Assembly (NCBI RefSeq): GCF_021654575.1
Contig: NZ_AP024488.1
Location: 1,426,001 to 1,490,000, forward strand
Reading direction: 5' to 3'
Source of the DNA: Desulfoluna limicola
GTDB taxonomy: Bacteria; Desulfobacterota; Desulfobacteria; Desulfobacterales; Desulfolunaceae
Length of the DNA: 64,000 nt
The number at the start of each line of letters is the position of its first letter. Position 1 is the first letter of the stretch. The translations under genes and the position numbers were made by a program. Shown one piece after another: positions 11,693-32,071 of this stretch. Under the pieces are notes generated by a model that was not told the DNA's origin, made no database searches, and worked only from the letters and a program-made list of their open reading frames with translations.

Positions 11693-12895
11693 ATGGGTAG
11701 CATCGGTACGATCATTATCTACATTATTATGGGGTGCGCCATCCTCGGCGCCTTTGCCTACATTAAGGATGATCAAAGCGGACTTGGCCAGGAGTTCATC
11801 GAAGGACTCAACAGCATTGGCCCCATCTTTGTGCCTGTGGCCGGCATCATGGCCGCCACGCCTTATCTTTCTATTTTCGTAAAAACAGTTTTTGGCCCCA
11901 TGTTTGCCGCCATCGGCGCAGACCCCGCCATCGCCGCCACCACCTTCATCGCCGTGGACATGGGCGGGTATCAGCTGGCCGAGGTTCTGGCGCAGACCAA
12001 AGAGAGCTGGATCATGGCCATGGTTGTCGGGTACATGTCCGGCGCCACCATCGTGTTTTCCATCCCCGTGGGCCTTACCATGCTTCAGAAAAGCGACCAC
12101 AAATACATGGCCTTGGGGGTCATGGCCGGAATCTTGAGTATTCCTGTCGGTGTGTTTGTCACCAGCGCCATTCTGTCCGTCGGTGACCTGGCTGTCCGCG
12201 GGGTGATCTCCGCCAACGCGGACTCCGCCTATGTGCTCGCCCTTAACTTCGGCACCATTTTCGCCAACCTGCTTCCCCTGACCCTCTTTTGTGTGGGATT
12301 GGCCATCGGCCTTAAGCTTGCTCCCAAAACCATGATCAAGGGCTTTCTTCTTTTTGGCCGCGCCATGAGCATCGGCCTGACCCTGGTTCTGGTCTTCTCC
12401 ATCGTGGAGTACTTCACCGGCGTATTCTCAAATCTTCTGGGCGGCTGGGGCTTTGATCCCATCATCGCTGACGAGGCCGATCAGTTCCGTGCCCTGGAGA
12501 TCGCCGGTTACATCGGCATCATGCTCTGCGGTGCGTTTCCCATGGTCTACCTTATTAAACAGTACCTGGCAGGTCCCATGGAAGCCATCGGCGCTAAGGT
12601 GGGACTCAAGAGTGAGGGGGCCGCTGGCATTCTGGCCGCTGCTGCCAACATTCTTGCCATGTTCCGCCTCATTGCCGACATGCGCGCCAAAGACAAGGTT
12701 CTCTGCATCGCGTTTTCCGTCTGCGCTGCCTTTATGTTCGGCGATCACCTCGCCTTTACTGCCAACTTTCAGCCCAACATGATCCTGCCTGTCATGAGTG
12801 GCAAGCTTGTCGGCGGCATCACGGGCTTTTGCCTTGCCTATATCCTCTCGGTTCCGGCCGCTGTCAAAATCGAGCAGGAGCAGCTGGAAGATTAA
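11693..12895 (+). CDS. eutH: Ethanolamine transporter EutH
   Basis: A 400-aa polytopic membrane protein of the EutH family, with about ten hydrophobic segments beginning at IGTIIIYIIMGCAILGAF. Recognisable family stretches are IGPIFVPVAGIMAATPYLS, the middle FIAVDMGGYQLAE and the C-terminal FGDHLAFTANFQP. EutH mediates uptake of ethanolamine across the inner membrane, mainly when the concentration of uncharged ethanolamine is low. AGGAG is placed 10 nt before the ATG. It is the first gene of the ethanolamine locus but is separated from eutB by a 549-bp repeat element, so it may be its own transcript. Confidence 0.93.
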   Translation: MGSIGTIIIYIIMGCAILGAFAYIKDDQSGLGQEFIEGLNSIGPIFVPVAGIMAATPYLSIFVKTVFGPMFAAIGADPAIAATTFIAVDMGGYQLAEVLAQTKESWIMAMVVGYMSGATIVFSIPVGLTMLQKSDHKYMALGVMAGILSIPVGVFVTSAILSVGDLAVRGVISANADSAYVLALNFGTIFANLLPLTLFCVGLAIGLKLAPKTMIKGFLLFGRAMSIGLTLVLVFSIVEYFTGVFSNLLGGWGFDPIIADEADQFRALEIAGYIGIMLCGAFPMVYLIKQYLAGPMEAIGAKVGLKSEGAAGILAAAANILAMFRLIADMRAKDKVLCIAFSVCAAFMFGDHLAFTANFQPNMILPVMSGKLVGGITGFCLAYILSVPAAVKIEQEQLED

Positions 12896-13483: not shown

Positions 13484-14845
13484 GTGAATCTGAGAAGCAA
13501 GATCGGCGACAAGGTCTTTACCTTTCAATCGGTCCGCGACGTTCTGGCAAAGGCCAACAACGAAAAATCCGGCGACGCCCTGGCCGGTATCGCTGCTGAG
13601 TCCGCCACGGAACGCGTGGCAGCCAAGCTCTGCCTGGCCAACCTGCAACTGAAAGACATCTATGAAAACCCCGTCATTGCCTACGACGATGACGAAGTGA
13701 CCCGGGTTATTTACGATGACCTGAACACCACGATTTATGACTCCGTAAAGAACTGGAGCGTGGCGGAGCTTCGGGAGTATATCCTCAAAACCCGGCGCCA
13801 GGGGGACCTGCTCAATATCAGCCGGGGACTGACCAGCGAGATGATCGCGGCGGCCGCCAAGCTGATGTCCACCATGGACCTGGTATACGCCAGCAAGAAG
13901 ATCAAGGTGTCTGCCCACTGCAACACCACCATCGGCCTTCCCGGGACCCTTTCGTTCCGCTGCCAGCCCAACCACCCCACGGACTCCATCGAAGGGATCT
14001 TGGCTGCCTTGAAAGAGGGCATCTCCTTTGGTTCCGGAGACGCGTGCTTCGGCGTGAACCCTGTCGAAGACAACGTGGAGGGGTTCACGCGGGTCATGCG
14101 GGCGATTACGGATTTCAGGGACAAGTACGAAATTCCCACCCAGTGTGTGGTTCTGGCCCACATCACCACCCAGATGCAGGCCATGGAGAAGGGGGTCCCT
14201 GTGGACCTTCTGTTCCAGAGCATTGCAGGCACCCAGACCGCCAACGACGCCTTCGGCATCTCCGCGACCATGCTGGAAGAAGCCCGTGAGATGGCCCTTC
14301 GCCTCGGCACCTCCACAGGCCCCAACGTCATGTATTTCGAAACAGGCCAGGGTTCCGAGATCTCTCTTGACTGCCACCATGGCGTGGATGAGATGACCCT
14401 GGAGGCTCGCTGCTACGGCCTGGCCCGTCGCTACAACCCCTTCATGCTCAACAACGTCTCCGGTTTTATCGGTCCCGAGACGATTTACACCGGCAAAGAG
14501 GTGATCCGGGCCGACCTGGAAGACCTCTTCATGGGCAAGATGCACGGCATCTCCATGGGGATCGCTCCCTGTTACACCAACCACATGAAGGCCGATCAGG
14601 ACGACCAGGAACTGGGGACCATGCTCTGCGCCATGGCCGGATCCAACTTCTTCATGGGGGTTTCCGGCGGTGACGACTGCATGCTGAACTATCAGGACAC
14701 CAGTTTCCACGATGACGCGGCGGCTCGTGAAATTCTCGGCCTGAGACCGGCCCCTGAGTTTGAAACGTGGCTTGAGAAAATGGGCATCATGGAAGATGGC
14801 TGCCTTACCGATGCTGCAGGCGACGCCTCAATTTTTGACAAATAG
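13484..14845 (+). CDS. eutB: Ethanolamine ammonia-lyase large subunit EutB
   Basis: At 453 aa it has the full family length. EutB is the catalytic TIM-barrel subunit of the adenosylcobalamin-dependent lyase that converts ethanolamine to acetaldehyde and ammonia. Family segments are clear: an N-terminal KIGDKVFTFQSVRDVLAKAN, DLLNISRGLTSEMIAAA, NTTIGLPGTLSFRCQPN, the substrate-pocket region FGSGDACFGVNPVEDN and the conserved FFMGVSGGDDCMLNYQ. The start is GTG, fixed by AAGGAG 6 nt upstream. It is followed 18 nt later by eutC, forming the lyase pair. A reversed repeat end lies 29 nt upstream, so its leader RNA largely derives from repeat DNA. Confidence 0.97.
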   Translation: MNLRSKIGDKVFTFQSVRDVLAKANNEKSGDALAGIAAESATERVAAKLCLANLQLKDIYENPVIAYDDDEVTRVIYDDLNTTIYDSVKNWSVAELREYILKTRRQGDLLNISRGLTSEMIAAAAKLMSTMDLVYASKKIKVSAHCNTTIGLPGTLSFRCQPNHPTDSIEGILAALKEGISFGSGDACFGVNPVEDNVEGFTRVMRAITDFRDKYEIPTQCVVLAHITTQMQAMEKGVPVDLLFQSIAGTQTANDAFGISATMLEEAREMALRLGTSTGPNVMYFETGQGSEISLDCHHGVDEMTLEARCYGLARRYNPFMLNNVSGFIGPETIYTGKEVIRADLEDLFMGKMHGISMGIAPCYTNHMKADQDDQELGTMLCAMAGSNFFMGVSGGDDCMLNYQDTSFHDDAAAREILGLRPAPEFETWLEKMGIMEDGCLTDAAGDASIFDK

Positions 14846-14863
14846 TGAAGGAGCGTGGAAGCA

Positions 14864-15757
14864 ATGAACGAACAGGAATTGATTCAAAGCGTCATCGGCA
14901 AGCTGGTGGAGCAGGGCGTGATAACAGGTAAACCTTCAGCCGAGACGGTGGCCGCAGTTGCCGCCTCTCCTTCGTTTTCAGGAGGCGCAGTCGGTGAGCC
15001 TGTGACCCTGCCTCCTTTGGACGAGGTGAAGGTGGACAACCCCAAAAACATGGCTGCCCTCGAGGCCATGCGCAAGACCACCCCGGCCCGGATTTTTATG
15101 GGCCGGTGCGGCGCTCGCCAGAAAACCCACTCTTTCCTTCATTTTCAGGCCGACCACGCCGCAGCCGTGGATGCTGTCTTTCTCGATGTCTCGGATGAGT
15201 GCCTGGCGGAAAACGGGCTTTTCGGCGTCCAGACCGCCGTCAAAGACAAAGACGAATTCCTCATGAAACCCGAGTTGGGAAAAAAGCTGAGCGAGGAGGC
15301 AAAAAAGACCATTGCCGAGAAATGCGTCAAAGGCGCTCAGGTCCAGATCATCGTGGTGGACGGCTTAAGCTCCACCGCCATCGAAGCCAACATCGCCGAT
15401 ACCGTTCCCGCCCTCGTCCAGGGCCTCAAAGCCGAAGGCATCTCCGTGGGAACCCCATTTTTCATCAAGTACGGCCGCGTGGGCGTTATGGACGACGTGG
15501 GCGCTCTCTTGAATTGCGACGTGGTCGTTGAACTCGTCGGCGAGCGCCCCGGCCTCATCACCGCAGAAAGCATGAGCTCCTACATGGTCTACAAAGCCGG
15601 GGAGAAAACCGTGGAAGCCGACCGAACCATTATTTCCAACATCCACAAAGGCGGCACGCCCCCGGCAGAAGCCGGCGCCCACATGGCCACCGTGGTGAAG
15701 CAGATGCTCGCCCACAAAGCCAGCGGGGTCTCTCTCTCTGAGGCGATGAAGGGGTAA
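14864..15757 (+). CDS. eutC: Ethanolamine ammonia-lyase small subunit EutC
   Basis: A 297-aa small subunit that helps bind adenosylcobalamin in the EutBC lyase. Segments characteristic of the family are TPARIFMGRCGARQKTHSFL, IVVDGLSSTAIEAN, PFFIKYGRVGVMDDVG and the C-terminal VELVGERPGL. An N-terminal stretch (about residues 1-60), Ala-rich with a possible amphipathic helix (NEQELIQSVIGKLVEQGV), precedes the core and resembles microcompartment-targeting peptides. I prefer the ATG at 14864 to GTG 14855 because AAGGAG lies only 1 nt from the GTG but 10 nt from the ATG. It is co-transcribed with eutB. Confidence 0.96.
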   Translation: MNEQELIQSVIGKLVEQGVITGKPSAETVAAVAASPSFSGGAVGEPVTLPPLDEVKVDNPKNMAALEAMRKTTPARIFMGRCGARQKTHSFLHFQADHAAAVDAVFLDVSDECLAENGLFGVQTAVKDKDEFLMKPELGKKLSEEAKKTIAEKCVKGAQVQIIVVDGLSSTAIEANIADTVPALVQGLKAEGISVGTPFFIKYGRVGVMDDVGALLNCDVVVELVGERPGLITAESMSSYMVYKAGEKTVEADRTIISNIHKGGTPPAEAGAHMATVVKQMLAHKASGVSLSEAMKG

Positions 15758-16452: not shown

Positions 16453-17970
16453 ATGGCCGACAGTCCCAAAATTTCATCGCTTTACGCGGCTCATGTGAGT
16501 GCGCCGGAAGAGGGCGAAGCCGAAGAGGTGGTGACCAGTGTGGGGATTGATATCGGCACCACCACCACCCAGTGTGTCATCAGCCGGCTCACGGTGAAGA
16601 ACACCGCGCCGGGAACCCTGGTGCCCCGAATGGAGATCACCGACAAGGAGGTGGTCTACCGAAGCGATATCCACTTTACCCCTATAACGGGTGAGAACCT
16701 TGTGGACACGGAAAAAGTGTTCCGGCTCATCGACGTGGAATTTACCAAGGCGGGCATCTCGCCCTCAGAGATCGACACCGGGGCGGTGATCATTACCGGA
16801 GAGACGGCCAAGAAAGAGAACGCACGGCTGATCTCAGGAGAGATGGCGGGCTACGCCGGGGACTTTGTGGTGGCAACGGCTGGTGGCAAGCTGGAGTCGG
16901 TGATTGCCGGGCGGGGTTCCGGAGCCTCGGATTATTCCCGGAGATATTTCAAGACCGTGGCCAACATCGACATCGGGGGAGGGACGGCCAACATCGGTAT
17001 TTTCAAGGGCGGAAAGGCCATCGACAGCTGCTGCATTAATGTAGGCGGCAGGTTGCTTCGCGTGGATGCCCATGGCGGACATGTTGTTCAGGTAACCGAG
17101 CCCATGGTTCATGTGCTTGAAGACCTCGGCTTTTCTCTCAAACAGGGGGATGCTGTGGACCCCATGACCCTTGAAATCATCTGCCGCCGCATGGCCGAGG
17201 TGGTGTTGAATTCCCTTAAGGGTTCAACTCTCACCGGCCTTGAGGATGCACTCATGATGACGGATGCCCTTCGGCTCGATTACGAGGTGGAGTGTGTGAT
17301 GATCTCCGGCGGTGTGGCGGACCACGCGTACACCACCTCTCCGTGTGACACCCTGGATGAGATCGCGCGGTATGGGGACATCGGTCCCATGCTCGGGCGT
17401 CAGGTGAGGCAGGTATTCAAAGGCAACGGCATGGAACTCATCCGCCCCACGGAAACGATTCGCGCCACGGTGATCGGGGCAGGGTCCCAGACCGTGGACG
17501 TGAGCGGCAGCACCATCGTGGTGACCGACGAGCGCCTGCCCATGAAGAACATTCCCGTGGTTATTCCCTTCGTGGAGGGGATCCCGGCAAATTCGGGTGC
17601 TGTCGCCGGAGCGATTCGGCAGAGCATCTCAAGCCTCTACGAATCCGACGACCTGGAGCCCCTGGCCGTGGGCATTCAAGGGAACGACTACCTTTCGTAC
17701 AAGCTGATTCAGGTCCTTGCAAAGGGAATCCTGGCAGGCCTTGAGCCCCTGATTCGGGTCGGCTTTCCCGTTATTGTTGTCATGGAACACGACAGCGGCA
17801 AGGTCCTCGGCCAGAGCTTAAGGGTGTTGAACCCAGCGGCCCAGGTAATCTGCGTGGACCAGATTGAAGTCAACGAAGGGGACTACATCGATATCGGCCG
17901 GTCCATTGCAGGGGGCACGGTGGTCCCGGTGGTGATCAAGACGCTTGTTTTTGAGACCCGTCAAACTTGA
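16453..17970 (+). CDS. eutA: Ethanolamine ammonia-lyase reactivating factor EutA
   Basis: A 505-aa ATPase of the actin/Hsp70 fold that reactivates inactivated EutBC by exchanging damaged cobalamin. It shows the phosphate-1 loop GIDIGTTTTQCVISRL (about residue 35), a second nucleotide motif NIDIGGGTANIGIF (about 175), and GAVAGAIRQSISS and MEHDSGKVLG near the C-terminus. The ATG is preceded by AAGGAG, and the nearby GGAGGC belongs to the end of the bounded repeat element, which stops 8 nt before the gene; the repeat therefore contributes to its ribosome-binding region. A forward copy of the element starts 28 nt after the stop. Confidence 0.96.
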   Translation: MADSPKISSLYAAHVSAPEEGEAEEVVTSVGIDIGTTTTQCVISRLTVKNTAPGTLVPRMEITDKEVVYRSDIHFTPITGENLVDTEKVFRLIDVEFTKAGISPSEIDTGAVIITGETAKKENARLISGEMAGYAGDFVVATAGGKLESVIAGRGSGASDYSRRYFKTVANIDIGGGTANIGIFKGGKAIDSCCINVGGRLLRVDAHGGHVVQVTEPMVHVLEDLGFSLKQGDAVDPMTLEIICRRMAEVVLNSLKGSTLTGLEDALMMTDALRLDYEVECVMISGGVADHAYTTSPCDTLDEIARYGDIGPMLGRQVRQVFKGNGMELIRPTETIRATVIGAGSQTVDVSGSTIVVTDERLPMKNIPVVIPFVEGIPANSGAVAGAIRQSISSLYESDDLEPLAVGIQGNDYLSYKLIQVLAKGILAGLEPLIRVGFPVIVVMEHDSGKVLGQSLRVLNPAAQVICVDQIEVNEGDYIDIGRSIAGGTVVPVVIKTLVFETRQT

Positions 17971-18251: not shown

Positions 18252-18387
18252 TCGTTTTTAAAGTTTTGTGATTTGAGTGGTTCTATAGAGAGACCTCTTT
18301 CGGTGCAATGGCGCACGGAAATGAGACGTCACTTATAAGATGCATCGATGAAAAAAAGGCCGGTTGATTCCGGCAAGGAGGAGTCGC

Positions 18388-19041
18388 ATGAAAGGGGATG
18401 CCCTGAAGTCCAAGGTACTGAGCGTGAAGATGATTCCCAATGTGGATCAGGACATGATTCGGGAGCTGTCGCTTCCCGATGGCCATCGCAGTGTGGGAAT
18501 GCTTACCTGCGATATTGACGACGTGGGCTACACGGCCATCGACGAGGCCACGAAGAAGGCCGATGTCAACGTGGCCTACGCCAAAAGTTTTTATGGCGGT
18601 GCCGTCAACGCCAACTCCAAGTTGGCCGGTGAATTTATCGCCATCCTTTCCGGGCCCAACCCTGCCGAGGTGAAGAGCGGCATCGATGCGGCCATTGATT
18701 TTCTGGAGAACGACGCATGCTTCCACAGCTGCAACGAAGACGACTCCATCTGTTACTACGCCCACTGCATCTCCCGAACAGGTTCCTTTCTGTCCGCCGA
18801 GGCCGGTATCAAAGAAGGGGAGGCCATCGCCTATCTTATCGCTCCCCCCATCGAGGCGGTTTACGCTGTGGATGCGGCCTTGAAGGCAGCGGATGTGAAG
18901 ATGGCGGTTTTCTACGGCCCTCCGTCAGAGACCAACTTCGGCGGGGCGCTTCTCACGGGCAGCCAGTCTGCCTGCAAGGCGGCGTGTGATGCCTTTGCCG
19001 ATGCCGTGCAGCATGTGGCCGACAACCCCCTTAAATATTAA
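18388..19041 (+). CDS. eutL: Microcompartment shell protein EutL (tandem-BMC trimer)
   Basis: A 217-aa BMC-T protein, close to the usual 219-residue length. EutL trimers tile the facets of the ethanolamine microcompartment and contain a gated central pore. Family stretches are GHRSVGMLTCDIDDVGYTAI, YAKSFYGGAVNANSKLAGE, AHCISRTGSFLS and FYGPPSETNFGGALLTG. I start at 18388, which has AGGAGG 8 nt upstream, rather than at the longer frame at 18364. It is followed 120 nt later by a second BMC gene. Confidence 0.96.
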   Translation: MKGDALKSKVLSVKMIPNVDQDMIRELSLPDGHRSVGMLTCDIDDVGYTAIDEATKKADVNVAYAKSFYGGAVNANSKLAGEFIAILSGPNPAEVKSGIDAAIDFLENDACFHSCNEDDSICYYAHCISRTGSFLSAEAGIKEGEAIAYLIAPPIEAVYAVDAALKAADVKMAVFYGPPSETNFGGALLTGSQSACKAACDAFADAVQHVADNPLKY

Positions 19042-19161: not shown

Positions 19162-19770
19162 ATGAACGGCAAGGCGTTGGGAATCATTGAAACCGTAGGG
19201 CTCGTGCCCGCTGTGGAGGCCGGGGACGTAGCGGTGAAGACCGCCGCCGTTTCCCTTATAGGCTCACAAGCGGTGGGCGGGGGCCTTGTCTCCATCCTGA
19301 TGACAGGGGATGTGTCTGCTGTCAAGGCATCCGTTGATGCGGGCAGCTCAGCGGCAGCGAGACTCGGTGAGGTCTTTTCGGTGACCGTGATTGCCCGGAC
19401 CGCAGATGGCCTTGGCGGGATTCTGATGGAAGAGAGCAAAAGCATTAAACGCTTTCCTGGAGGAACAGCTCAGGGTGCCACGCATAAGGAGTCCGTCTCA
19501 GGACCGGAAGCCCTGACCGAACCTGCATCCGCTGAGGCACACGAAGCACAGATCGGTGAAATGGCTGAGGTAGAGAAGAAGAGTGCGGAGGCCGGAGACG
19601 GCGAGCCCTTAAGCTTAGACATGGCAGACCTTAACAAGCTGAAGGTGACCAAGCTGAGGCGTCTCGCACGACAGATTCCAGGTTTCTCCATTGCGAGGGG
19701 CGAGATCAAGTATGCCAAGAGGAAGGATCTTCTTGAGGCGTTTACGGCTTACATCAAATCATTGACGTGA
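19162..19770 (+). CDS. BMC-domain shell protein with Rho_N/SAP-like C-terminal tail (EutK/EutM-like)
   Basis: A 202-aa protein. Residues 1-90 are a single BMC domain (GIIETVGLVPAVEAGDVAVKTA, then VSILMTGDVSAVKASVDAG), the hexamer-forming building block of shell facets. An acidic, Ala/Glu-rich linker (about 95-150) leads to a basic C-terminal domain (LNKLKVTKLRRLARQIPGFS, with KRKDLLEAFTAYI) resembling the Rho N-terminal or SAP helix-extended-loop-helix fold that binds nucleic acid. Enterobacterial EutK also joins a BMC domain to a nucleic-acid-binding-like tail, but that tail is a winged helix. It may tether RNA or DNA, or a partner protein, to the shell; that is inference. GGAGG precedes the ATG. 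Confidence 0.82.
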   Translation: MNGKALGIIETVGLVPAVEAGDVAVKTAAVSLIGSQAVGGGLVSILMTGDVSAVKASVDAGSSAAARLGEVFSVTVIARTADGLGGILMEESKSIKRFPGGTAQGATHKESVSGPEALTEPASAEAHEAQIGEMAEVEKKSAEAGDGEPLSLDMADLNKLKVTKLRRLARQIPGFSIARGEIKYAKRKDLLEAFTAYIKSLT

Positions 19771-19791
19771 CACATGACGGAAGAACCCCTT

Positions 19792-20003
19792 GCCTCCGAT
19801 GGGTCGCTTTGTTGATAAAAGCTCCGCAAATAAATTTCGGTTGCAGCAGCTTGTGCCTTCAGCCCCTGAAAGGGGGGGGGACACCGGCTCCCATAAGATG
19901 AATTATCCGAAAAAAGAGACGGTGCCCGAAGAGCTGGAATCGCTTTCAAAGCCTGTTTGTCAAACTTTTCATAAGTTTGGCCCCCGGCAGGGCCGCCGGA
20001 GGC
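19792..20003. repeat. MITE-like element with inverted ends, upstream of eutE
   Basis: Left end GCCTCCGATGGG starts 21 nt after the BMC-gene stop; right end GGCCGCCGGAGGC ends 44 nt before the eutE start. It contains a G9 run (19872-19880) and the hairpin CAAACTT-TTCAT-AAGTTTG (19962-19980). The left half is more diverged than in other copies. Confidence 0.6.
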
Positions 20004-20047
20004 AAACAGGAACGTATCATGACAACGACGTAAGAAGAGGACTTAAG

Positions 20048-21490
20048 ATGGTAGATAAGGATTTACTCTCAATCCAGGAAACCCGGGCGCTGGTTCGTGC
20101 CGCCCGCGCAGCGCAACCCGCCCTTGAAGGGGCCGGCCAGGAGCGCGTGGATGCTCTTGTTGAGGCCATTGCCAAGGTTGGGGCTGAGATGGCTGAAGAG
20201 CTGGGCAAGATGGCCAGTGAAGAGACCGGTTTCGGCAAGTGGCAGGACAAGAAGCAGAAGAACATCCTCGCCACCCGGAAGCTGGTTGATTACTTCAAGG
20301 GCATGAAGACCATTGGCATCATCGGTGAGGACAAAGAGAAGAAGCTTGTGGAGATCGCCACCCCCATGGGGGTGATTGCAGGGCTGATCCCCTCCACCAA
20401 CCCCACGTCCACCACGTTCTATAAATCAATTATCTCTCTAAAGAGCGGCAACGGCATCATTTTCAGTCCCCATCCCAGTGCGGTGACGTGCATTACTGCC
20501 ACCGTGAACGTGATCAAGGGGGTTCTGAAAGCCATGGGGTTTTCCGAAGACCTGGTGGGCGTCATCAGCGTCCCCACCATGGAGGGCACCGATGAGTTGA
20601 TGAAGATTTCCGACATGATCCTCGCCACCGGTGGCAATGCCATGGTGAAGGCAGCTTACAGCTCCGGCACACCCGCCCTCGGCGTGGGGGCCGGCAACGT
20701 GCCCGTGTTCATCGAGCGCAGCGCCGACGTGGACGTGGCCGTTCAGAAGATCCTGGCTTCGAAAACGTTCGACAACGGCACTGTCTGCGCGTCCGAGCAG
20801 CACATTGTCACCGAAGCCTGCATCGCCGACAAGGTGAAGGCAAGCCTCGTCGCCCAGGGCGGTTACTTTCTCGAAGGCGAGAAGCTCGCCAAGGTCAAGC
20901 GCGTCATGGAACGCCCCAACGGCGCCATGAACCCTGCCATCGTGGGGCGCTGTGCCGCCGATATTGCCAAGATCGCCGGCATCGACATCCCTGCCGGCAC
21001 CACCATGCTGGTGTGCGAGGAAGAGGGTGTCGGTCCCACGTTCCCCTTCTCCAAGGAGAAGCTCACCGCCCTTCTCGGCTTCTACACCGTGAATGACTGG
21101 CAGGAGGCCTGCGAGCTCTGCTTCAAGCTCCTGAAGAACGGCGGCATCGGCCACTCCCTCGGTATTCACTCCAACAACGAGACCGTAATCCGTGAGTTTG
21201 CCATGAAAAAGCCCGTCTCCCGCTTCCTGGTGAACACCCCCACCACGCAAGGCGCAGTCGGCATCACCACCAACCTGTCTCCCTCCTTCACCCTCGGGTG
21301 CGGGACCGTGGGCGGCAGCGCAACTTCGGACAACGTCGGCCCCCAGCACCTCTTCAACATCCGTCGCATGGCCTACGGCCTCGATGATGCGGCAGCCACC
21401 ACCTCCGTGGGTTCGGGTGAACATGTCGACGTGCAGGCGGTGACCAACATGATCGTGGAGCAGCTCAAGAAGATGAGCGCGGCGCAGTAG
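20048..21490 (+). CDS. eutE: CoA-acylating acetaldehyde dehydrogenase EutE
   Basis: A 480-aa aldehyde dehydrogenase of the EutE/PduP group, which oxidises acetaldehyde from EutBC to acetyl-CoA with NAD+ inside the microcompartment. The catalytic Cys lies in NGTVCASEQHIV. Other marks are IPSTNPTSTTFYKSI, the NAD-binding GNAMVKAAYSSGTPALGVG and ATSDNVGPQHLFNIRRMAYG. The N-terminal ~20 residues (LLSIQETRALVRAARAA) look like an amphipathic targeting helix. The frame is open to 19790 through repeat DNA; I start at ATG 20048, which has AGAGGA upstream and matches family length. Confidence 0.95.
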   Translation: MVDKDLLSIQETRALVRAARAAQPALEGAGQERVDALVEAIAKVGAEMAEELGKMASEETGFGKWQDKKQKNILATRKLVDYFKGMKTIGIIGEDKEKKLVEIATPMGVIAGLIPSTNPTSTTFYKSIISLKSGNGIIFSPHPSAVTCITATVNVIKGVLKAMGFSEDLVGVISVPTMEGTDELMKISDMILATGGNAMVKAAYSSGTPALGVGAGNVPVFIERSADVDVAVQKILASKTFDNGTVCASEQHIVTEACIADKVKASLVAQGGYFLEGEKLAKVKRVMERPNGAMNPAIVGRCAADIAKIAGIDIPAGTTMLVCEEEGVGPTFPFSKEKLTALLGFYTVNDWQEACELCFKLLKNGGIGHSLGIHSNNETVIREFAMKKPVSRFLVNTPTTQGAVGITTNLSPSFTLGCGTVGGSATSDNVGPQHLFNIRRMAYGLDDAAATTSVGSGEHVDVQAVTNMIVEQLKKMSAAQ

Positions 21491-21503
21491 CTTTGAATAG
21501 CAT

Positions 21504-21622
21504 GCCTCCGGCCAAGGTGGGGGCACCTTGAAACCCTATGGTGAATGCGTAAAGGTCGCTGTGATTAAATCGTTTTCGGGGCATTCGCTCGGAGAACGAG
21601 GCACGGCGACCGCTTTTGAGAA
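21504..21622 (+). repeat. eut-locus palindromic element, forward copy after eutE
   Basis: Starts GCCTCCGGCC 13 nt after the eutE stop with the hairpin CAAGGTGG-GGG-CACCTTG, then GTGAATGCG and GGCATTCGC. No reversed partner is evident before the next gene, so this copy appears single-ended. Confidence 0.6.
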
Positions 21623-21723
21623 GAAGCCTGTTTCATTTTTTTGTGTCACGACAACTCCTCGATTTCGTCTTCCCCGGCTGTCCGGGTAGCCTGTAGCTCC
21701 AAGTGAACCACAAAAGGCGTTTT

Positions 21724-21990
21724 ATGATCACAGGGCGTCTCCTGGGCAGCGTCTGGGCCACACGAAAGGTGGAGGCCCTGTCCGGCATGAAGCGGATTCT
21801 GGTTGAATGCCCGGACCCAATAGATGCAGGTCGATGAACAACCTTTGTGGCGGTTGATTTTGGAGGCGCCGGAAGAGGCGGCAGGCTCGTGAGTGCCAAG
21901 GGACGTACGGTTGGAAAAGGCCCGGCGATGACCGCTGCGCCAGTGGACACCGCCATGGTGGGGATTATCGACGAGAAGGAAGAGAGATGA
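21724..21990 (+). pseudogene. eutN: EutN/CcmL-type microcompartment vertex protein with in-frame UGA
   Basis: Reading 21724-21990 in one frame gives an 88-codon product with the hallmarks of BMC-P pentamers: MITGRLLGSVWATRKVEALS, ILVECPDP, then FVAVDFGGAGRGGRLVSAKG and APVDTAMVGIIDEKEER. The frame is intact except for a TGA at codon 38 (21835-21837), in the variable loop just before FVAVD. It ends in an ATGA overlap with eutQ. So it is a single point-nonsense allele, a sequencing error, or a read-through gene. Pentamers cap the vertices of the shell, so loss would leave it open unless another BMC-P exists elsewhere. Selenocysteine seems unlikely: this position is not a conserved Cys and no convincing SECIS hairpin is seen. 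Confidence 0.8.
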
Positions 21991-22652
21991 AAAAGATATT
22001 GGTCGGCGCCGACGCCGTACTTGCCCAAGTAAACGACGGCGTTTTTATTCTTGAGGAGAACATGATCTTGACCCCGGCGGCCCGTGATCTTTTACGGGAG
22101 GGCCGTGTGATGATCATGGCAGGGACGATTGCCCATAACCAGAGCATAGCCCAGGCCCCCTGTGGAGCCCCGGTATGCATGAACTGCAGTGAGTGTGTCA
22201 TGGAAAACAACGACGTAAATCTTGAAGCATTGATTCGTAAAATCGTAGCCGAGCAGTTGACTGCCGCAGGAAATAAGTTTGAGAAAATCGTGGACAAAGA
22301 GAGCGGCGTTCTTTGCGTAAAGGCGGCAACGGTCAACCCCGAACCGTTTGATACAGGAAAAGAGGGGGACAAGGTTTTTATTACCGACGTCGTCAACCTG
22401 GAGGAGAGCCCCCGCCTCGGATTCGGCATTATGGAGATGAAAGAGGGCACCGCCTTTGATTGGACCCTTCGTTACGACGAGGTGGACTACATCATCGAAG
22501 GCACCCTTGATATCATCATCGACGGACGCAACGTCACCGCCACCAAAGGGGATATTATCTTTATCCCCAAAGATTCCTCCATCACCTTCAGCACCCCTGA
22601 CTCCACCCGGTTTATGTTTGTCACCTATCCTGCTGACTGGGCCAGCCAGTAG
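21987..22652 (+). CDS. eutQ: EutQ-like cupin protein
   Basis: A 221-aa protein. The C-terminal half (about residues 110-220) is the EutQ cupin: FDWTLRYDEVDYIIEGTL, IIDGRNVTATKGDIIFIPKD and FMFVTYPADW. In Salmonella, EutQ has been linked to acetate-kinase activity and microcompartment assembly. The N-terminal half (ILTPAARDLLREGRVMIMAG) resembles the start of EutT-type proteins, and APCGAPVCMNCSECVMEN forms a small Cys-rich segment that could bind metal. The start overlaps the upstream vertex-protein frame by 4 nt, so translation is probably coupled, and the UGA there could reduce its expression. AAGGAAGAG precedes the ATG. Confidence 0.88.
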   Translation: MKKILVGADAVLAQVNDGVFILEENMILTPAARDLLREGRVMIMAGTIAHNQSIAQAPCGAPVCMNCSECVMENNDVNLEALIRKIVAEQLTAAGNKFEKIVDKESGVLCVKAATVNPEPFDTGKEGDKVFITDVVNLEESPRLGFGIMEMKEGTAFDWTLRYDEVDYIIEGTLDIIIDGRNVTATKGDIIFIPKDSSITFSTPDSTRFMFVTYPADWASQ

Positions 22653-23173
22653 CCTTCAGTTGAATTCTCCCACGAAGCCACTTTCATCAGGGCTTCGTGG
22701 GCCCCACCTGACGATCCCTTCATTTTCCATAGCCGGTATCGTCTGCGTGTTCTTACTCCCTCAGGCAACCGTCGCACTCTCCTCTGTTTTTTTTCTTCAG
22801 GCGGCTCCAAAACCCAAGAGCGTGTTTGGTTTTCACCATGCATCGAAGGCACCACCGTTCGAGTGGCCAACAGACGTAACGACGAGTTTAAACACAGGGT
22901 TTTGGCCTTCATGTCACCCTTAGCCCCTCTTTTATCCCCTATGTCCTGTCTTTTCTGTTGGTCCCCCCGCATTTTATCCCTTGCCTTCTTTTTAAGGACC
23001 GTTACCGTCCTTCAGCCCACTTTATATCCAAGCACGCGTTTCCCTTTTTTTTCCACTCACTGTCTTTATAATGAACTGATGCCCTGTTGATCTTCTTGTG
23101 ATATACTGACTTTTTATATAAGGTAGATTAATACAGGTGGTTATATCTCTTTTTACATTCAGGGGTAAGCTAA
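22653..23173. other. Intergenic region after the eut locus
   Basis: Holds the hairpin at 22669-22701, then pyrimidine-rich DNA (CCCTTAGCCCCTC at about 22918, related to the TTAGCCC words). No gene seen. Confidence 0.5.
22669..22701 (+). terminator. Hairpin at the end of the eut locus
   Basis: A perfect 11-bp stem CCCACGAAGCC/GGCTTCGTGGG with an 11-nt loop, 16 nt after the eutQ stop. No U-run follows directly, so it may be a 3'-end-stabilising structure rather than a classical intrinsic terminator. Confidence 0.45.
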
Positions 23174-27047: not shown

Positions 27048-27901
27048 GGTGTTCGCTCCGCGAATGTCCAATTGATTAAAAGCAAGGGCAAGGGCGTTCT
27101 TAGTACGCGGAACTTGCTCTGTAAGTGGTCAGATTGATCAAAGGAAAAACAAAAACGTTCTTTGCTTAATGAGTTTGCTACGCAAGCATCCCATTCCCCT
27201 CATTCCCAGGCTTCGCCTGGGGATGCCTTCCTGTAGGCTCTGCCTTCTCTGTAGTTGATGCAGCAGCCTCAATTTACTCCACCTATACAACAAAATTTAT
27301 ACCGTAGTTTTGGTGTGAGTAACGCGCTCGACGATTACAGGCCTTTTAACGGCTTTGGCTTTTATCTAAATGATGGAACGCAGAGACTCCTCGAACGAAG
27401 CACGAACGAAGCACGAAGAACCAAGCACGAAGAACGCCTTTGCTTTTTCTATTCACTACTCACCGAAACTAAAAGCGTTCTTCGTTCTTAGTGCCTGGTT
27501 CTTGGTTCGAGGTGTTCGCTCCGCGAATGTCTAATTGATTAAAAGCAAGGGCAAGGGCGTTCTTAGTACGCGGAACTTGCTCTGTAGGTGGTCAGATTTG
27601 ATCAAAGGAAAAACAAAAACGTTCTTTGCTTAATGAGTTTGCTACGCAAGCATCCCATTCCCCTCATTCCCAGGCTTCGCCTGGGGATGCCTTCCTGTAG
27701 GCTCTGCCTTCTCTGTAGTTGATGCAGCAGCCTCAATTTACTCCACCTATACAACAAAATTTATACCGTAGTTTTGGTGTGAGTAACGCGCTCGACGATT
27801 ACAGGCCTTTTAACGGCTTTGGCTTTTATCTAAATGATGGAACGCAGAGACTCCTCGAACGAAGCACGAACGAAGCACGAAGAACCAGGCACGAAGAACG
27901 C
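27048..27901. repeat. Direct duplication of about 390 bp
   Basis: 27048-27437 is repeated at 27511-27901 with an offset of 463-464 and very few differences (one inserted T near 27595, a few substitutions). Each copy runs from a forward heptamer arm through a structured spacer to a reverse arm. Confidence 0.8.
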
Positions 27902-28348
27902 TTTTGTATTTAAGCCCCAAGAACAGTTTTTACGCTTTTGCTTTTTCTATTCACCATTCACGACTTACTATATCACTGATACCCTGCCTTCCATGCCGGA
28001 GCGGAGCGACTCCTCGAACGAAGCACGAAGAACCAGGCACGAAGAACGCTTTTGTATTTAAGCCCCAAGAACAGTTTTTACGCTTTTGCTTTTTCTATTC
28101 ACCATTCACGACTTACTATTCACTGATACGGTCCTGCCTTCCATGCCGGAGCGGAGCGACTCCTCGAACGAAGCACGAAGAACCAGGCACGAGGAACGCT
28201 TTTGTATTTAAGCCCCAAGAACAGTTTTTACGCTTTTGCTTTTTCTATTCACCATTCACGACTTACTATTCATTGATACGGTCCTGCCTTTCCTGCCGGA
28301 GCCCAGCGACTCCACCGCTACTCACTATTCACGACTTTCTATTCACAG
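27901..28348 (+). repeat. Three tandem copies of a unit of about 150 bp
   Basis: Copies start at 27901, 28049 and 28199 (periods 148 and 150). Each runs from CTTTTGTATTTAAGCC through TATTCACCATTCAC to CATGCCGGAGCGGAGCG and a reverse heptamer arm; the third copy diverges at its end. Confidence 0.8.
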
Positions 28349-28434
28349 GGCTGTTACAGCCCTCCCTTCCATGCCGGAGCGGAGCGACTCCTCGAACGAA
28401 GCACGAAGAACCAAGCACCAAGAACCGTTTTTAA

Positions 28435-29294
28435 TCTTTTTATTACTTGCCAAGGAATTCCCAACCCCCAAACTGTCCAATTTTTCGTACAGATGAGGAT
28501 TAATTCATTTTAGTGTTGACATGGGAGAGGAAAAGCGGGAAAACATAACTCGTTTTGGTTTGGTGGACCAACATTGGCGCAGCTCTCGCGCATCTTTAGT
28601 CGTTGTAATCATGATGGAATCGTTTTGCGAAATTAAGCGATGTGAGTTCAGGTCCCGTGATTGCGTATTTTAAGGCTACGATTCGTCAAGTAAAGTAACG
28701 AGTTCTCTTTTCTGGAGACCAGAGAGACGATACCTTGTTCCCGATAAGTGAAACAAGTCGTTTCTTCTTCCTTCTCCCTCCCCCCCTATAGAAAAGAGAC
28801 CCATCGGCTGCGTTTCAGCCCCTGGTGTGTCCCCCCAAAATATCATAATCCGTCATATTTAATGTTGTACCCGTAGTGGCAACACCCGTCGTACTAAAAA
28901 ATTGGTGACCTTAGCCCGGAATCGTTTATGAGAAAACGGCGAGGTCCTCGACATACATCGCAATTGGTGTGCACGTTTTTTTGTGTGGCTTCCTCACCCT
29001 CCGGGGAACTGAGAGAGCTTACCTGAGGTGTTATCAGGGTTTTGAGGTGACTTGCTGCGTCTGCAGATCTGCTGCCGTGTGTCTAAGTGCACCCGATTCG
29101 TGAGTTATCCGAGTTAGCAACCCGCAACACCGCCAGACTGAGCCAGAATTCATTTTCTGGCCCTTGGATCTGGCCGTCTTGCGAACGACGGCACCCGTTT
29201 ATCGCCAACAGGCGAATTGTTTCCCCCATCGTTAACGTTTTTAAAACAGGTGGATGTAACCTGAGGGGCGGAGCTATGCGCGGAAAATATTAAA
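28435..29294. other. Unassigned AT/GC-mixed region without a gene
   Basis: No credible gene. Contains a C7 run near 28784 and a stretch at about 28919-29090 with CTCACCCTCCGG and GTGCACCCGA, faintly like the reversed 12993-13120 repeat. The longest frame (29087-29293) shows no recognisable domain. Confidence 0.45.
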
Positions 29295-29576: not shown

Positions 29577-29945
29577 ATGTCAATAAAACGATTTGAAGAT
29601 ATCGAAGCTTGGTCGGTCGCTCGAAAATTGACTCAGGAAGTCTATTTGGCTGTAAAGTCGGATAAATTCAGTCGGGATTGGGGTTTGAAGGATCAGATAA
29701 CCAGAGCCTCCGGCTCAGTCATGCACAATATAGCTGAAGGATTTAATTCGGGATCAAAGAAAGATTTTGCTCGATTTTTATCATATGCCCAAAGGTCCTG
29801 TACAGAGGTTCAAAGCCAGCTGTATGTGGCTCTGGATCAACAGTATATAGATTCTAACTCTTTCGAACATATCTATGAATTGGCCGAACATGCGAAATTG
29901 AAAATCGGTGGATTTATAAGGTATTTGAAAAGTGAGGAAAAATAA
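29577..29945 (+). CDS. Four-helix-bundle protein (S23/IVS-type), copy A
   Basis: A 122-aa protein of the S23 ribosomal/23S rRNA-intervening-sequence family. Diagnostic parts are FEDIEAWSVARKLTQEVY (helix 1), DWGLKDQITRASGSVMHNIAEGF (helix 2), DFARFLSYAQRSCTEVQSQ (helix 3) and a C-terminal helix ending FIRYLKSEE. The fold is a small antiparallel bundle that forms pentamers in the related Avd proteins and is basic enough to bind nucleic acid. It lies directly inside heptamer arrays on both sides and has no Shine-Dalgarno outside the repeat. The copy at 62466 is a close paralogue. It is not in a 23S rRNA gene and no reverse transcriptase is nearby, so the job is unknown. Confidence 0.9.
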   Translation: MSIKRFEDIEAWSVARKLTQEVYLAVKSDKFSRDWGLKDQITRASGSVMHNIAEGFNSGSKKDFARFLSYAQRSCTEVQSQLYVALDQQYIDSNSFEHIYELAEHAKLKIGGFIRYLKSEEK

Positions 29946-30350
29946 TAAAAACAGTTCTTCGTGCTTGGTTCGTAGTTCTTCGTTCGAGGAGTCGTTTCAC
30001 TCCAGCATTTATGAAACGACAAAAAACAAGGGCAATGAGACCAAAAGGTTGTGCTTGGTTCTTGGTGCTTCGTTCCTCGTTCAAGGAGTCGTTTCACTCC
30101 AACATTAATAAAAGGGCAATGAGACAGGTCAACAGAATCAAATATGCTGTTGTCTTAAGCGCTTTTGCTCTTATCAAAACGGGCCACTTGCGTAGCAAGT
30201 TCCGCGAACGAAGAACCAGGAACGAAGAACGAGTAACGAAGAACGAGGAACGTTTTTTTAATCAAATTGGTTATTCGCCCAGCGAATTCATTGAACGAAG
30301 AACCAGGAACGAAGAACGAAGAACGCTTTTTAAGGAACGCCTTTCATTAT
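29946..30350. repeat. Heptamer arrays between the bundle gene and the metallo-hydrolase
   Basis: Forward arms at about 29957-29995 and 30052-30095, reverse arms at 30205-30255 and 30290-30330. Array hairpins include GGAGT-CGTTTC-ACTCC and CCACTTGC-GTA-GCAAGTT (about 30184). The last reverse arm ends 20 nt before the metallo-hydrolase start. Confidence 0.75.
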
Positions 30351-31694
30351 ATGCCTTACACCCTATCCCATCTATCACCCGTCGATTCAGTCACGCCTTC
30401 TTGCCACCTATTGCAAGTAAAAGGCGGTCTTACGATTATGATCGACTGCGGCCTCCCCATGGCCGGCGACTCAATCGCCCCTTTTACCGACAGGCCCGTG
30501 GCCCCGGCAGACATCGACTATCTCTTCCTCACCCACGCCCATATCGATCACATCGGGCGGGTGCCGGACTTGATCGATGCGGGGTTTGAAGGGGAGATCC
30601 TCTGTTCCCATCCCACGAAGGCCCTGCTGATTCCCATGCTGCACGATGCCATGGGGTTTTCCAAGCGGTCAAAGGATGAGGTGAAGCGGCTGGAAGCAGC
30701 CATTGACGAGCTCTCCTGGGGATTTGAGTACCAGCAGTCGTTTCGGCTGAACAAGGGGGTTCGGTTTAAGCTGGGCCGGGCAGGGCACATTCTGGGGTCC
30801 TCCTTTGTCCATTTTACGATCCCCAACGGGGATGGAAAGCCATCTAAGGTTCTCTTTTCAGGGGACCTGGGGTGCAAGGGCTCTCCGATCCTCTGCGATC
30901 CGGACACACCCGATCCCTGCGATCTTCTGGTGATGGAGTCCACCTACGGGAACAGAAACCATGAAGATCGAACCGAACGCGTTGAGCGCCTCGAAAAGGT
31001 CCTCAGAAAAGCCCTTTCCGACGGCGGCAAGGTCTTTATCCCCGCGTTCTCCCTGGGGCGCACCCAGGAGTTGATCTATGAAATCGACCGGATTTTGTCC
31101 AACATAAACCCAGGGGATGGGAGCCCGTTAAATGGGATTCCGGTCTTTGTGGATTCGCCCCTGGGCCTTGAGATCACCAACATCTATGCGTCGCTTTCAG
31201 AGTTCTGGGACCGGGAGTCCCAAGCCCTTCTCAAAGAAGGCGATCACCCCATCGATTTCAAGACACTCTTTTCCGTTCGCTCCTACCGCGACCACCAGAA
31301 AGCCCTCACCGTGCCCGGCCCGGCCATCATCATCGCCGGAAGCGGGATGTGCTCCGGAGGCCGGATCATCGACCACCTGGAAGAGGGCCTTGGTGATGAA
31401 AAGAACGATGTCCTTTTTGTGGGCTACCAGGCCCGAGGGACCCTTGGCCGCGATATCCTGACGTACGGCCCCCGGAAAAACGGTTACGCCCGCATCAACG
31501 GCGAAAAGGTCTTCATCAACGCCGAGGTCCACAAGCTGGCCGGCTACTCGGCCCACGCCGATCAGAAAGAGTTGGTGGAGTGGGTGGAGGGGATGGGGGA
31601 AAAACCGGGGAAGATAAGGTTGGTGCATGGGGAAAGTGATGCGCAGGAGGGGTTGAAGAGGGTGTTGGAGGATCGAGGGTACAGAGTAGAATAA
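30351..31694 (+). CDS. beta-CASP metallo-beta-lactamase-fold RNA/nucleic-acid hydrolase
   Basis: A 447-aa MBL-fold enzyme of the CPSF73/beta-CASP group. It shows motif 2 THAHIDHIGR, motif 3 GRAGHILGSS, motif 4 FSGDLG, the beta-CASP insert with MESTYGNRNH and IPAFSLGRTQE, and motifs A-C ending KLAGYSAHADQ. These enzymes are zinc-dependent endo/exonucleases acting mainly on RNA. The usual N-terminus (a strand of the form FLGA..VTGSCHLLE) appears here as HLSPVDSVTPSCHLL, so the first strand is altered, and heptamer-array DNA runs to within about 20 nt of the ATG. The frame stays open upstream to 30267 through the array, but I choose ATG 30351. Catalytic residues are intact. Confidence 0.85.
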   Translation: MPYTLSHLSPVDSVTPSCHLLQVKGGLTIMIDCGLPMAGDSIAPFTDRPVAPADIDYLFLTHAHIDHIGRVPDLIDAGFEGEILCSHPTKALLIPMLHDAMGFSKRSKDEVKRLEAAIDELSWGFEYQQSFRLNKGVRFKLGRAGHILGSSFVHFTIPNGDGKPSKVLFSGDLGCKGSPILCDPDTPDPCDLLVMESTYGNRNHEDRTERVERLEKVLRKALSDGGKVFIPAFSLGRTQELIYEIDRILSNINPGDGSPLNGIPVFVDSPLGLEITNIYASLSEFWDRESQALLKEGDHPIDFKTLFSVRSYRDHQKALTVPGPAIIIAGSGMCSGGRIIDHLEEGLGDEKNDVLFVGYQARGTLGRDILTYGPRKNGYARINGEKVFINAEVHKLAGYSAHADQKELVEWVEGMGEKPGKIRLVHGESDAQEGLKRVLEDRGYRVE

Positions 31695-32071
31695 ATACTT
31701 AAAAAACGTGCTTGGTTCTTGGTTCTTCGTGCTTCGTTCGAGGAGTCGCGGTGCTCCATCATTTAGAAAAAATACTAAAGACGTATTTTGGAAAAACGTT
31801 CCTCGTTCTTGGTTCTTCGTGCTTCGTTCGAGGAGTCGCGATGCTCCATCATTTAGAGAAAAGCCAAAATCGTTGAAAGTCTCAAAAACAAGGTGCCTTT
31901 TTCTTTTCACGGAATGCTTTCGATTTTAACGAAATGCCTTTGTTTTTAATATTTTTGACCTCATAAAATTGGTCACATGCAACGCAAGTTCCATGAACGA
32001 AGAACCAGGAACGCAGTTGCTCTTATTCGAAGAACCAAGAACGAAGAACTAAGCACGCCCTTATTATATCT
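31695..32071. repeat. Heptamer arrays around the metallo-hydrolase 3' end
   Basis: Two near-identical forward arms at 31707-31764 and 31799-31856 (CTTGGTTCTTCGTGCTTCG, then GGAGTCGCGGTGCTCCATC or GGAGTCGCGATGCTCC) and a reverse arm at 31994-32055. No gene seen. Confidence 0.75.

Follow-up and report, generated by a model that had tools for sequence, protein, structure and literature searches.

The eutN gene in the eut operon of Desulfoluna limicola, which codes for the vertex (corner) protein of a bacterial microcompartment that processes ethanolamine, is, in our assessment, a young pseudogene, with a probability of about 0.87. The gene lies within a 64,000-nucleotide stretch of DNA (the window), which corresponds to positions 1426001-1490000 of the 6.26-Mb single-contig genome. 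It carries a TGA within its reading frame and has evolved under relaxed constraint, and three congeners lack eutN altogether in the corresponding operon. The layout of the operon is given in Table 1.

Table 1. Features of the D. limicola eut operon, in window coordinates
Feature	Position	Strand	Remarks
eutH	11693..12895	+	
eutB	13484..14845	+	
eutC	14855..15757	+	
eutA	16453..17970	+	
EutL-like tandem BMC shell protein	18364..19041	+	
BMC-H shell protein, EutK/EutM-like	19162..19770	+	
eutE, aldehyde dehydrogenase	19790..21490	+	Annotated start gives the longest frame; conserved part from near 20042
eutE-eutN gap	21491..21723	+	Holds a single interspersed-repeat copy (about 21502-21710)
eutN (BMC-P, PF03319), probable pseudogene	21724..21990	+	88 codons and stop; from translation, Pfam and whole-genome search
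In-frame TGA, codon 38 of eutN	21835..21837	+	Sole internal stop; from translation and the GLD-1 orthologue
eutQ	21987..22652	+	Start overlaps the end of eutN

A single in-frame TGA interrupts eutN

The eutN frame translates as MITGRLLGSVWATRKVEALSGMKRILVECPDPIDAGR, a stop, TTFVAVDFGGAGRGGRLVSAKGRTVGKGPAMTAAPVDTAMVGIIDEKEER and a final stop. Read through the TGA, it matched all 83 of the 83 positions of the Pfam EutN_CcmL model (PF03319) at 56.9 bits (E 3e-15), well above the curated cut-off of 25, and as a gene remnant it therefore belongs to this family over the whole domain (positions 1-83). A search of the whole genome recovered the same site independently, reporting "1 TGA" inside the match (E 1.1e-14). 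The original prediction, made from the window alone, had described a eutN frame broken by one UGA in the loop before FVAVD and ending in an intact overlap with eutQ; all of this was borne out, and the last codon of eutN overlaps the start of eutQ as ATGA (21987-21990). MAG GLD-1 has an intact orthologue (64% identical) in the corresponding position of this operon, so the frame is not a chance one. In its full-length match and in the operon position of the GLD-1 orthologue, eutN thus resembles the EutN/BMC-P vertex proteins (PF03319), among them Salmonella EutN and PduN and carboxysomal CcmL, but unlike them it is interrupted and its constraint is relaxed. The TGA is not explained by an alternative genetic code, because eutA and the EutK-like gene end in TGA as their ordinary stop, as does the full eutN frame.

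The gap between eutE and eutN measures 233 bp in D. limicola and 78 bp in GLD-1, and most of it is a single copy of an interspersed repeat about 220 bp long. We counted 80 copies of the repeat core in the D. limicola genome (38 forward and 42 reverse, with at most 3 mismatches), 54 in D. spongiiphila, 30 in D. butyratoxydans, 5 in Desulfoluna sp. Pyr_d60_bin26 and 0 in GLD-1; a reversed control gave 0. The listed D. limicola copies were 75-87% alike over up to about 210 bp, and several copies start directly after a same-strand open frame ends. The arms of the hairpin with which the repeat begins covary (AAGGTG/CACCTT, CAGGTG/CACCTG and GAGGTG/CACCTC); covariation over the whole length, examined in 19 copies, was weak. 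Rfam gave no match in positions 21300-22100, and neither a promoter-like site on the + strand nor a terminator-like site was found in 21400-22800. Elsewhere in the window, repeated frames reading RSGATPRTKHEEPGTKN and similar occur on both strands at 27800-28500 and 29870-31930, and these look like another dispersed family of DNA repeats between genes.

eutN is intact in one relative and absent from the operon of three others

We compared the locus with those of four congeners: D. butyratoxydans MSL71 (G002), D. spongiiphila AA1 (G006), Desulfoluna sp. Pyr_d60_bin26 (G005) and MAG GLD-1 (G003). The only intact orthologue found was that of GLD-1, which lies directly 5' of eutQ and has an ATA (Ile) codon at the site corresponding to codon 38. 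The codons around this site read CGG-ATA-ACC in GLD-1 and CGA-TGA-ACA in D. limicola, a difference that implies either multiple substitutions or two single-base indels that offset each other. The eut operons of the other three congeners had no PF03319 match, and the spacing between eutE and eutQ in these genomes is only about 70-100 bp. It follows that the operon is able to persist without a vertex gene of its own. In a further genome with a fragmented assembly (G004), we saw no counterpart of the long-form eutQ locus.

Searching contigs with D. limicola eutN alone returned no matches; relatives were obtained when a GLD-1-led alignment was used as the query. In a tree of 83 BMC-P proteins, the D. 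limicola and GLD-1 eutN sequences paired (99/96), with a very long branch leading to D. limicola (1.68). The tree does not fix the point at which this pair joins, so a gain in the pair and repeated loss elsewhere are both compatible with it. Two Photobacterium BMC-P proteins, from P. proteolyticum and P. alginatilyticum, fell among Desulfobacterota sequences in the same tree, pairing at 100/100 and joining Desulfobotulus at 93/82, a placement that suggests transfer between phyla.

Constraint on eutN is relaxed on the D. limicola lineage

Between D. limicola and GLD-1, pairwise omega (dN/dS) was 0.38 for eutN and 0.05-0.16 for the validly aligned neighbors. A custom-written branch codon model, built on one orthologue with distant paralogues as the outgroup, gave an omega of 0.42 on the D. 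limicola eutN lineage and 0.08 elsewhere (p=0.002); an omega of 1.0 on that lineage was not rejected (p=0.25), nor were values down to about 0.15. Across three outgroup sets, omega was 0.42-0.54 on this lineage, and relatives had 0.06-0.13 (p about 0.001; range, 0.0006-0.0012), so that eutN lacks purifying selection like that of its relatives as well as an uninterrupted frame. Polarized amino acid changes told the same story, with a D. limicola to GLD-1 ratio of 9:1 in eutN and 62:116 in eight neighbors pooled (Fisher p=0.0008). At columns at least 90% conserved in relatives, D. limicola eutN departed at 7 and GLD-1 eutN at 1 (p=0.06).

The other shell genes and the enzymes of the eut operon remain under purifying selection, which indicates that the operon is in use. 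Four control genes (eutL, the EutK-like gene, eutB and eutC) showed no acceleration on the D. limicola lineage; the remaining one, eutQ, was slightly faster (p=0.03, one of five tests), which a relative-rate count did not confirm. The relaxation on the D. limicola lineage dates from after its split from the GLD-1 lineage. Constraint had thus weakened, and the stop does not stand alone in an otherwise well-kept gene.

The loss itself appears to be young or very recent, because a single disabling change, and not one frameshift, is seen in the 264 bp of eutN. The D. limicola lineage has accumulated about 0.3 substitutions per neutral site, and drift along the whole branch would predict about 1.7 stops and, if an indel share of 5-10% is assumed, about 4-8 indels. 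Set against this expectation, the lone stop and the lack of any net frameshift suggest that the loss spans only part of the branch. A weakly constrained but working eutN that was hit by a very recent stop (or by a sequencing error) fits the selection data as well.

Intact vertex genes are present at other microcompartment loci

The second BMC-P gene that the original prediction suggested looking for exists twice in this genome. Both copies are intact and score more than 105 bits; they lie at genome positions 1361592 and 1393531, 86 and 54 kb upstream, each amid several BMC-H and BMC-T genes. One of the two upstream loci also holds EutB and EutC, and the other holds a PFL-like glycyl-radical enzyme and a radical-SAM protein and is, by resemblance, a putative choline-type GRM locus. 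The two loci are large, occupying genome positions 1346662-1403060, 23-100 kb from the eut operon, with many BMC-H/T genes and one BMC-P gene each. The genome as a whole contains three EutB and four EutQ-like genes.

Recoding, read-through and other explanations for the TGA

Reading UGA 38 as selenocysteine, to yield a full-length EutN selenoprotein, is a question worth asking in an organism that decodes selenocysteine, and D. limicola has both a tRNA-Sec (75 bits) and SelB (367.8 bits), components whose search had been proposed with the original prediction. Its three formate dehydrogenase alpha genes (genome positions 1279399, 1274862 and 5729739) each have one in-frame TGA after HCAR and are likely selenoproteins; in two of the three, an 8-pair stem whose loop reads GGGCU or GGUCU lies 3' of the TGA, and the third has a shorter stem at the same place. 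In eutN, by contrast with these positive controls, no SECIS-like hairpin was found 3' of the TGA. The fold there was no stronger than that of shuffled sequences (z from -1.15 to +0.92), and the TGA-free eutN of GLD-1 folds much like it. Cys was present at the codon-38 column in 0 of 81 relatives, which have Leu, Gly, Lys, Asp, Arg and others there, with Ile in the orthologue; the column belongs to a variable loop, not to a redox site. Thus eutN shares with the selenoproteins of the same genome an in-frame TGA in a Sec-decoding organism, and differs from them in hairpin, Cys homologues, redox site and selection. Together these differences rule against a recoded selenoprotein, which we find barely credible.

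Nor is ordinary low-level read-through, giving a small but useful dose of vertex protein, other than very improbable. The frame is open on both sides of the UGA and few pentamers would suffice, since only 12 cap a polyhedral shell (PMC8217296), but a useful protein should keep its constraint, whereas omega on this lineage reached 0.42-0.54, and a trace supply would be unnecessary given the two intact BMC-P genes. The read-through that the original prediction had entertained was not supported, with no SECIS-like hairpin, no Cys in relatives and a decaying protein. Very much the same doubt attaches to the broader idea that low-level decoding of UGA 38, by Sec insertion or by read-through, would supply a few full-length vertex proteins as a translational control of dose. 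It is likewise highly unlikely that the first 37 codons have been retained because they do something by themselves, for instance as a leader peptide through which translation is coupled to eutQ. When the parts on either side of the stop were fitted separately, omega on the D. limicola lineage was 0.09 before it, with 1.0 just rejected (p=0.048), and 1.55 after it; a joint fit with shared branch lengths did not support this hint of differing selection, the two parts showing no difference with any of the three outgroup sets (p 0.22-0.25). Moreover, the stop lies 150 bp 5' of eutQ, and in the three congeners eutQ has its start with no eutN before it. A base-call or assembly error, under which codon 38 would in truth be a sense codon and eutN an intact, fast-evolving gene, is unlikely, if less far-fetched. 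AGA, GGA and TTA, each one base away from TGA, either occur in relatives at this column or would be plausible there; the frame has no other interruption, and it still overlaps eutQ. Such an error would leave both the relaxed selection along eutN and its absence from three congeners unexplained, and the assembly is a single contig. The recent mutation that the original prediction had listed as another option is the one that the relaxed selection on this lineage and the missing eutN of the three congeners support.

Implications for the eut microcompartment

If eutN is a young pseudogene, ribosomes would end at the UGA and release a peptide of 37 residues at most; such a fragment covers under half of the pentamer-forming domain and is unlikely to form a pentamer. 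The likely cause of the relaxation is redundancy, the two intact BMC-P genes residing in two other microcompartment loci. These genes are present in the genome, and they may be used in the shells of the eut operon; the vertices of those shells, if made, would have to come from them. The claim in the original prediction that the state of eutN decides whether the shell seals is accordingly not supported, since the same genome has both genes. In Salmonella, assemblies are elongated when EutN is lacking (PMC12487888), and cells without PduN form tubes that nevertheless shield the cytosol (PMC9243111), so a shell need not be capped to have some use. Work in Klebsiella has shown hexamers to be compatible across BMC types (PMC12058022); a limited literature search found no comparable test for pentamers.

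The eut locus may be turning satellite-like, relying on vertices made elsewhere. Satellite-like loci, in which hexamer genes and enzymes occur without BMC-P in genomes that hold complete loci, have been described (PMC4207490), as have EUT modules as satellite loci (PMC8217296). The category is thus already known, and the Desulfoluna eutN locus is a new example of it: PF00936 genes and BMC enzymes are present at the eut locus with no working PF03319 gene, and complete loci, with BMC-P among BMC-H and BMC-T genes, lie around 1361592 and 1393531. Unlike the satellite-like loci, it retains a BMC-P remnant that can still be read, so that the loss has been caught part-way, and the described EUT modules have fewer genes than the Desulfoluna locus.

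These results remove a tempting story of recoding and put a plain one in its place. They also provide, within one genus, a series of the same eut operon in which the vertex gene is intact (GLD-1), broken (D. limicola) or absent (three genomes), in genomes that hold other microcompartment loci with intact vertex genes. With this series, whether the pentamers of one locus cap the shells of another becomes testable.
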